Below, piece by piece: positions 39,665-46,585 of a DNA stretch of 49,976 nucleotides; positions within the stretch are counted from its first letter, which is position 1; each line of letters begins with the position of its first letter. The position numbers and the translations under genes are program-made. The notes under the pieces were generated by a model. The model was not told where the DNA came from and did no database searches. It was given only the letters and a program-made list of their open reading frames with translations. This DNA is from a virus, in IMG/VR virus record IMGVR_UViG_3300024265_000070, positions 1-49,976 of that record; one strand, 5' to 3'.

Positions 39665-39693
39665 TTGACATTATACGACATTTCGACTATAAT
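39665..39693 (+). promoter_or_regulatory. Promoter with degenerate operator palindrome (class I, copy D)
   Basis: TTGACA (39665-39670), 17-base spacer, TATAAT (39688-39693). The spacer reads ACGACATTTCGA where other copies have ACGATATATCGT, a weakened operator. It drives the 39732 gene and the RNA region downstream. Confidence 0.84.
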
Positions 39694-39954: not shown

Positions 39955-39960
39955 AGACCG

Positions 39961-39986
39961 CCCCCGAGAGATCGGGGGCTTTTTTT
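39961..39986 (+). terminator. Rho-independent terminator before the tRNA array
   Basis: CCCCCGA-GAGA-TCGGGGG then C and seven T residues. The tRNA array starts 30 bases later and has no clear promoter of its own, so tRNAs may rely on readthrough or on an AT-rich weak promoter near 39990. Confidence 0.9.
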
Positions 39987-40015: not shown

Positions 40016-40088
40016 TGCCGAGTGGAGCAGTGGAGTGCTCGTTGGCCTCATAAGCCAAAGGTCGTGGGTTCGAACCCCACCTCGGCTA
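40016..40088 (+). tRNA. tRNA-Met (CAT), initiator-like
   Basis: Cloverleaf: acceptor TGCCGAG/CTCGGCT with an unpaired U1-U72, D-stem GAGC/GCTC with A11-U24, anticodon arm TTGGC-CTCATAA-GCCAA, variable AGGTC, T-arm GTGGG-TTCGAAC-CCCAC, discriminator A. The absence of a 1-72 pair and the A11-U24 pair are initiator marks, and the body (GTGGAGCAG, GCTCGT, AAGGTCGT, CTCATAA) reads as tRNA-fMet. The three G-C pairs of the anticodon stem are G-C, G-C, C-G instead of GGG/CCC. CCA is not encoded. Confidence 0.93.
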
Positions 40089-40092
40089 CTAA

Positions 40093-40165
40093 TGCTCTGT
40101 AACTCAATTGGTAGAGTGCCTGACTGTTAATCAGGTTGTTATAGGTTCGACTCCTATCGGGGCAG
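40093..40165 (+). tRNA. tRNA-Asn (GTT)
   Basis: Acceptor TGCTCTG/CGGGGCA (two G-U pairs), anticodon arm CCTGA-CTGTTAA-TCAGG with anticodon at 40126-40128, T-arm ATAGG-TTCGACT-CCTAT, discriminator G. CCA is not encoded. Starts four bases after tRNA-Met. Confidence 0.93.
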
Positions 40166-40168
40166 CAA

Positions 40169-40242
40169 GGCCTTGTAGCTCAACTGGACTGAGCGTCTCC
40201 CTGTCGAGGAGAAGGATGCGGGTTCGAGTCCCGTCGAGGTCG
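40169..40242 (+). tRNA. tRNA-Asp (GTC)
   Basis: Acceptor GGCCTTG/CGAGGTC, anticodon arm TCTCC-CTGTCGA-GGAGA (GTC), T-arm GCGGG-TTCGAGT-CCCGT, discriminator G as required for aspartate. CCA is not encoded. The tmRNA-like RNA begins only four bases later, so both probably come from one precursor. Confidence 0.93.
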
Positions 40243-40246
40243 CTAC

Positions 40247-40346
40247 GGGGATGAACAGATTCGACATCAGGCTAGATTACGGTGAAAACGCCCAAGACGA
40301 AACACCAAAGCCTTATGGACGCGGGAGCATTGCCCGCCATCTCCAC
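40247..40346 (+). ncRNA. Miniature tmRNA-like RNA
   Basis: 100 nt. GGGGATG (40247-40253) pairs with CATCTCC (40338-40344), G3:U70 being the alanine identity pair; A follows as discriminator. The 5' region GATTCGAC has the tmRNA D-loop-like segment. A P2-like stem AGGCT/AGCCT (40269-40273/40309-40313) plus GGTG/CACC closes an 18-base loop. The loop ACGCCCAAGACGAAA resembles the tmRNA resume region (A-Q-D-E when read GCC-CAA-GAC-GAA). GGACGCGGG leads into the T-arm GCGGG-AGCATTG-CCCGC, with a loop unlike the usual TTCGATT. No pseudoknots, no stop codon and no encoded CCA. A T7 run follows. Alternatives are a decayed ssrA or an attachment-site remnant. Confidence 0.8.
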
Positions 40347-40372: not shown

Positions 40373-40401
40373 TTGATATAATCCTCAAAATAATATATAA
40401 T
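40373..40401 (+). promoter_or_regulatory. Promoter of the 40.5-kb structural operon
   Basis: TTGATA (40373-40378), 17-base spacer, TATAAT (40396-40401). It sits 20 bases after the tmRNA-like RNA and its T-run, so it starts a new unit with an attenuator in the leader. Confidence 0.83.
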
Positions 40402-40443
40402 GAAACCAATCAAATAAATGGCTAGGCTCTCAAAGAGAGTTAA

Positions 40444-40484
40444 CCCGTAACGATACGACGTCTGTATTTGTTGCGGGATTTTTT
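40444..40484 (+). terminator. Leader terminator/attenuator 1
   Basis: CCCGTAAC (40444-40451) pairs with GTTGCGGG (40470-40477), one G-U, with ATAC/GTAT inside, then A and six T residues. It is located between promoter and first gene. A related leader is at 43779. Confidence 0.78.
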
Positions 40485-46223: not shown

Positions 46224-46508
46224 ATGACCGCTCCAAATAGAGTAGCACAAAAAACGCTCAAAACTCTTTTGTCCCTGGAAGCCAAGGTAGACGTTATCTT
46301 GAAAAACATGGGTATTCCCGAAAAGGAATTGAAAGAGCTTAATGAGAGGTTGGGTAAGGTCGCGGTATATCGCTCTCCTCCACCCAACAAAAAAGAAAGC
46401 CTCTCCAGAGAGGAAGTCGCCGCGCAGGTAGCCGGATCTCCTGAACCCGCAAAGGGAAAGGCCAAGAAAGCCAAACCAGCGCAGGCCAAGGACGAATCTG
46501 AGGATTAG
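46224..46508 (+). CDS. Small coiled-coil/basic-tailed protein
   Basis: 94 residues from the ATG after AGAGAGGTGTATA. A helical first half (AQKTLKTLLSLEAKVDVILK), then a Lys/Pro/Ala-rich tail (KGKAKKAKPAQAKDESED). It may be a head-associated factor. A longer frame into the capsid gene is unlikely. Last gene before a terminator. Confidence 0.66.
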   Translation: MTAPNRVAQKTLKTLLSLEAKVDVILKNMGIPEKELKELNERLGKVAVYRSPPPNKKESLSREEVAAQVAGSPEPAKGKAKKAKPAQAKDESED

Positions 46509-46534
46509 TCCTCAATCGCCCAAACAACTATCAA

Positions 46535-46564
46535 GGGGCGGGCAATAATCCGCCCGCCCCTTTT
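46535..46564 (+). terminator. Strong rho-independent terminator after the capsid gene
   Basis: GGGGCGGGC (46535-46543) and GCCCGCCCC (46552-46560) form a 9-bp perfect stem with an 8-base loop followed by TTTT. It reduces readthrough into the connector/tail genes, which explains high capsid expression. Confidence 0.94.
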
Positions 46565-46585
46565 ATTTTTATGAGGTAAAAAACT

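Follow-up and report, generated by a model that had tools for sequence, protein, structure and literature searches.

Trans-translation is near-universal in bacteria, and the G3·U70 pair is a known identity element of AlaRS. Mycobacteriophage DS6A carries a "TLD only" tmRNA (PMC4131195; PMC11915505). According to the passage of PMC4131195 that cites Mao et al. 2009, a molecule similar to the DS6A element inhibits tmRNA strongly, perhaps via SmpB titration, and does so independently of charging, a statement that recurs in PMC11915505. The tmRNA database of 2025 rejects truncated forms, names DS6A as the phage case, and reports that certain organelles with SmpB have retained tmRNAs lacking a CDS; the message-less mitochondrial ones are thought to aid rescue, not to block it (PMC11915505). 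No description of a wider family of mini-tmRNAs was found in the literature searched, which mostly lay outside subscription papers and preprints.

The element analyzed here resembles the DS6A tmRNA in being phage-borne, in having little beyond a tRNA-like domain, and in the absence of a tag reading frame; compared with the description of DS6A, it differs by a long P2 into which 51 nt are inserted and by its noncanonical T-loop. With bacterial tmRNA (ssrA, RF00023) it shares the acceptor G3–U70, TTCGAC, P2, GGAC, and the T-arm, but it has neither message domain nor pseudoknots and is ~100 nt long versus roughly 350. Its T-loop resembles the alphaproteobacterial GGCGGTA of the model for permuted two-piece tmRNA (RF01849, RF01850, RF01851, RF04321), whereas its order is not permuted (5′ GGGGATG lies ahead of 3′ CATCTCC) and both acceptor strands belong to one ~100-nt RNA. 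The CDS-less tmRNAs of plastids and mitochondria also have no tag reading frame; they are organellar and not viral. Judged by its sequence, the element adds a new and divergent member to the DS6A kind, as that kind is set by the description of DS6A, and it was not classified as a canonical tmRNA because no message domain was found.

Architecture and detection of the element

The window, i.e., the whole stretch of DNA analyzed, is a 49,976-base virus record that encodes terminase, capsid, replication, and methylase proteins; the head, packaging, and replication genes indicate a phage context. A phage tRNA array (Met, Asn, Asp) occupies positions 40016–40243, and the miniature tmRNA starts 3 nt 3′ of tRNA-Asp (Table 1).

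Table 1. Coordinates of the tRNA array and of the parts of the miniature tmRNA in the window
Feature	Position	Strand	Evidence and remarks
tRNA-Met (CAT)	40016..40089	+	ARAGORN, Rfam; same array as mini-tmRNA
tRNA-Asn (GTT)	40093..40166	+	ARAGORN, Rfam
tRNA-Asp (GTC)	40169..40243	+	ARAGORN, Rfam; ends 3 nt upstream of mini-tmRNA
Miniature (TLD-only) tmRNA, 99 nt incl. A73	40247..40345	+	Covariance model (42.8 bits, E 4.6e-9); fold
Acceptor stem, 5′ strand GGGGATG	40247..40253	+	Sequence; 7/7 pairs with 40338–40344
GATTCGAC, tmRNA D-loop signature	40258..40265	+	Sequence; TTCGAC within it is a family-scan anchor
P2, 5′ strand ATCAGGCT	40266..40273	+	Pairs 7/8 with 40309–40316
Inner hairpin GGTG/CACC, 18-nt loop with "resume-like" ACGCCCAAGACGAAA (40288–40302)	40281..40306	+	Sequence, fold
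P2, 3′ strand AGCCTTAT	40309..40316	+	Sequence, fold, P2 covariation
GGAC linker before T-arm	40317..40320	+	Sequence; family-scan anchor
T-arm GCGGG-AGCATTG-CCCGC	40321..40337	+	Sequence, fold
Acceptor stem, 3′ strand CATCTCC with U70, then A73	40338..40345	+	Sequence, fold

The earlier note had described a tmRNA-like RNA of 100 nt at this locus; such an RNA was recovered, although its length is 99 nt. The tmRNA-like parts listed there (GGGGATG start, G3–U70, A73, GATTCGAC, P2, GGAC) were all found in place, and CCA is indeed not encoded, CTT coming after A73. The acceptor stem has 7/7 pairs including G3–U70, with A73 at 40345. P2 comprises 8 bp with C–U as the sole mismatch, and the T-stem comprises 5 bp; the noncanonical T-loop AGCATTG (40326–40332) retains a C at loop position 3. 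The inner GGTG/CACC hairpin takes the place that a short apical hairpin has in the common form of 79 nt, and the distance between TTCGAC and GGAC is 51 nt. The minimum-energy fold forms the named helices (−28 kcal/mol, z −2.4), with 3 of 200 shuffles equally good, while the complete architecture occurred once in the window and in 0 of 200 shuffles.

Thus, the alanine-type tRNA-like domain of a canonical tmRNA (G3–U70, A73, TTCGAC, GGAC, T-arm) was present in the element. The message domain (resume codon, tag, stop codon) was absent from it, and there was no room for standard pseudoknots, whose absence had been noticed previously. It had also been claimed that no tag stop exists in any frame; this holds after the resume-like stretch inside the element, whereas TGA (40252), TAG (40273), and TGA (40283) lie upstream of the stretch. 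A tRNA D-arm and anticodon arm were not found, and neither ARAGORN nor RF00005 made a call at the element, though the three neighboring tRNAs were called. A small ORF (ATG at 40251, MNRFDIRLDYGENAQDE...) was rejected as a reading of this region, the RNA being part of a structured family that shows covariation.

A covariance search, proposed in the earlier note, gave a match with a family model built from 68 members from other viruses, the window sequence being left out: 42.8 bits and E 4.6e-9, with a tRNA region as the runner-up in the window (18.2 bits). The same model gives full-length tmRNAs ~23–48 bits; therefore, the score of 42.8 bits demonstrates homology to the tRNA-like domain of tmRNA and not membership in the "mini" class, for which the criterion is that both acceptor strands pair within 100 nt. 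The element was called neither by ARAGORN nor by Rfam at gathering scores. The gathering threshold of RF00023 was not reached in the window, the best tmRNA-type scores being ~12 bits; models of permuted tmRNA gave only ~12 bits, on the 3′ half of the element. RF00023 scores many short family members at 50–81 bits, as tmRNA with the entire message domain deleted, so they are visible to Rfam; ARAGORN misses them.

Several further features surround the array. A perfect sigma-70 promoter (39665–39693) lies ahead of it, a very small ORF starts from 39732 between the promoter and the array, and a strongly structured segment (fold z −4.1) ends in a terminator (39960–39979) directly before the array. 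A promoter-like site (11/12) lies directly 3′ of the mini-tmRNA, and beyond it come a long hairpin (40444–40477) and a T-run, ahead of the structural genes; this region (40373–40484) resembles an attenuator or a leader for antitermination. Pfam matches in the window included a HAD domain of the RNA-repair type (HAD_SAK_2) and a protein similar to recombination directionality factors (PF18897). A host search with the major capsid protein (tblastn) returned distant matches only, to Mycobacterium and Microbacterium phages (22–25% identity). No tRNA call and no mini-tmRNA match were obtained in the searched loci of homologues of the adjacent structural gene (L002–L006).

A viral family of mini-tmRNAs and its conservation

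Viral contigs were scanned with a pattern of TTCGAC, a short gap, GGAC, a T-arm, and YTCCA, and matches were filtered for 7/7 acceptor pairs, 5/5 T-stem pairs, and at least 4/6 P2 pairs. After the filter, at least 150 distinct mini-tmRNAs remained at no fewer than 208 loci, nearly all of them viral. Neither this family nor the published DS6A precedent had figured in the earlier note. The first strict pattern had yielded mainly chance matches, among which the pairing filters kept three distinct sequences (L014/L053, L031, L051) besides that of the window. Many 3′-half matches in named phages proved to be full-length or permuted tmRNAs or attachment sites and were rejected as minis.

Most members are ~79 nt long, with 25–33 nt between TTCGAC and GGAC. 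This common short form consists of P2, an A-rich bulge, and an apical hairpin of 3–4 bp; only ~20 nt separate the P2 strands, which leaves no room for a tag. The resume codon suggested previously therefore gained no support, nor did a role of the window element as a "nonstop tag". CCA is encoded in about half of the members (62/133). Longer inserts, that of the window included, occur in a minority. T-loops vary among members, including alphaproteobacterial-like GGCAGTA and the AGC/ATC types. The window element is divergent in its T-loop, P2 mismatch, and 51-nt insert. Two relatives, L031 and L051, likewise combine an A[GT]C T-loop with a long insert. AGCATTG is noncanonical, as had been noted, but by comparison with these relatives it is a subgroup trait and not a defect.

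In intermediate forms of ~135 nt (L355, L366, L374, L375, L379), a short stretch, GCA AAT ACG ... TAG/TAA, may be a tag frame. Its putative products, ANTAGLTE* and ANTVGMFK*, are without the usual LAA ending, and such a tag could possibly be non-degrading.

Covariation of P2 was analyzed in 89 dereplicated members, with positions anchored only by TTCGAC and GGAC and without fitting to pairing. Pairs 1–5 were paired in 98, 93, 90, 92, and 87% of members, respectively, versus 41–56% in shuffles (highest single shuffle, 67%), and all six pair types were used; compensatory changes, which the earlier note had proposed to look for in relatives, are thus present. G3 was found in 150/150 distinct members. 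Since U70 was fixed by the family scan, a second scan was made for a position 70 other than U, with a TTCNA T-loop. It gave no matches in the whole viral collection within the scope of TTCNA T-loops, versus at least 120 viral matches for U70 with a similar T-loop, in a pattern that also demands GG before TTTCGAC. In the sequences compared, the alanine identity is essentially invariant though they are otherwise diverse. Because P2 covaries and G3–U70 is invariant, the family is under selection, in line with the earlier view that the element is not a product of random decay; for the window element, the interpretation supported is that of an alanine-type RNA that derives from tmRNA, has no message domain, and is kept by selection.

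Distribution and genomic neighbors

The same pattern gave 10 matches in genome contigs of 84,980 species versus at least 120 matching viral contigs. Seven of these 10 belonged to full-length or permuted tmRNAs; the other three (L258, L259, L262) were minis in MAG contigs. Unannotated minis were found within the tRNA arrays of Streptomyces phages LuckySocke, pSt2308, Shaeky, and BRock, and were matched by BLAST in Streptomyces phages GiJojo and Alone3. The kind of RNA known from DS6A alone in the literature found thus appears widespread.

It is very improbable that the element is an ssrA truncated by integration at an attachment site or a decaying tmRNA; the first of these had been named in the earlier note as a case that would speak against its reading. 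Some phages do carry ssrA 3′ ends beside integrases: tmRNA 3′ halves adjoin integrase genes in Gordonia phage Yeezy (L349) and Moorella phage MCACPph1 (L353), and these are typical ssrA attachment sites, in contrast to the minis. In the window element both ends are present, and the acceptor strands pair 7/7 versus 2–5/7 in the non-mini control matches of genome contigs; the compensatory changes in P2 also argue against truncation. No integrase family occurred among the Pfam matches of the whole window. Integrase was absent from the 25 commonest families (PHROGs or Pfam) of 115 proteins neighboring minis, with at most one integrase among these proteins; minis have few or no integrase neighbors.

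In a tally of mini loci alone, genes for terminase, portal, head protease, and major capsid protein recurred as neighbors, and they almost always shared the strand of the mini; tRNAs lay within 1.5 kb in 33/150 members. At ~10 loci, a mini precedes the major capsid gene by ~120 nt, with both on one strand. Together with the 3-nt spacing from a tRNA in the window, this arrangement could reflect a processing signal acting in cis, at which cleavage by RNase P/Z would free the downstream capsid mRNA or neighboring tRNAs, with no role for the free RNA. We consider this unlikely: G3–U70, TTCGAC, and GGAC are unnecessary for processing, yet they are kept, and the remaining members are located within tRNA arrays or at different sites.

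A gene for SmpB was found neither in the window record nor in any of 49 whole viral records with minis, so host SmpB would be used. Full-length tmRNA (RF00023) had no match in 48 of these 49 records. The record of one large virus (G006, locus L094) contained a mini-tmRNA (46486–46567) and a 392-nt candidate for a full-length tmRNA (77588–77979).

Proposed role in host ribosome rescue

Given the homology, architecture, conservation, and viral distribution observed for the element or its family, its lack of a message domain, and the lack of SmpB in the viruses tested, we regard the element as probably (at roughly 0.6) a phage tmRNA reduced to its tRNA-like domain, which would act as a competing decoy for host trans-translation. 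The decoy was one of the roles offered in the earlier note, and it seems to us the likeliest. Judging from the 3-nt spacing, the RNA would be transcribed with the tRNA array and cut from the array transcript, and CCA would be added to the trimmed product. Host AlaRS would charge it with alanine, as the invariant G3–U70 and also A73 suggest; that tmRNA motifs are retained and that the phage has no SmpB of its own points to binding by host SmpB, and EF-Tu of the host would presumably bind it as well. The mini-tmRNA and host tmRNA may then compete both for SmpB and for ribosomes that have stalled on broken mRNA. A nascent chain could pass onto its alanine, where there is neither resume codon nor tag. 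By analogy with what PMC4131195 states on DS6A and on Mao et al. 2009, the host would be hindered in tagging and degrading nascent proteins, or this process would be diverted.

The alanine identity is invariant although the reported inhibition needed no charging; plain SmpB titration therefore fails to explain this conservation. It suggests that the mini-tmRNA must be charged and hence may act on the ribosome, not only by SmpB titration. This action of a charged decoy beyond titration is the least secure step of the mechanism. Being divergent, the window member could have drifted from the family role.

The invariant alanine identity, which implies an active, charged role, would also fit rescue without tagging, in which the mini-tmRNA with host SmpB takes the nascent chain and release or rescue factors free the ribosomes, so that these are recycled for the phage while its proteins stay unmarked for destruction. 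The location of many members among head and packaging genes and the CDS-less organellar tmRNAs that persist with SmpB (PMC11915505) agree with this. We nevertheless find it rather improbable, as the stop and resume codons are absent and release would need another factor, and the sole activity of a similar molecule reported in the cited passage of PMC4131195 is inhibition.

Returning to the decoy and extending it to the family, we tentatively suggest, at slightly less than even odds, that message-less, alanine-chargeable tmRNAs are a common, previously unrecognized class of phage anti-ribosome-rescue RNAs across many lineages, acting as charged decoys in stalled ribosomes and stopping the host from tagging and degrading phage proteins. 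Phage RNAs countering trans-translation were known from a single phage in the papers found. That the alanine identity is so strict raises a sharp question, as the reported inhibition did not need charging, and cultured Streptomyces phages (LuckySocke, GiJojo, pSt2308, Shaeky, BRock, Alone3) make the family open to direct test. Annotation tools that discard "truncated" tmRNAs would need changing. Should the proposed action hold for the family, phages would have a widespread RNA-based means of controlling host ribosome rescue.
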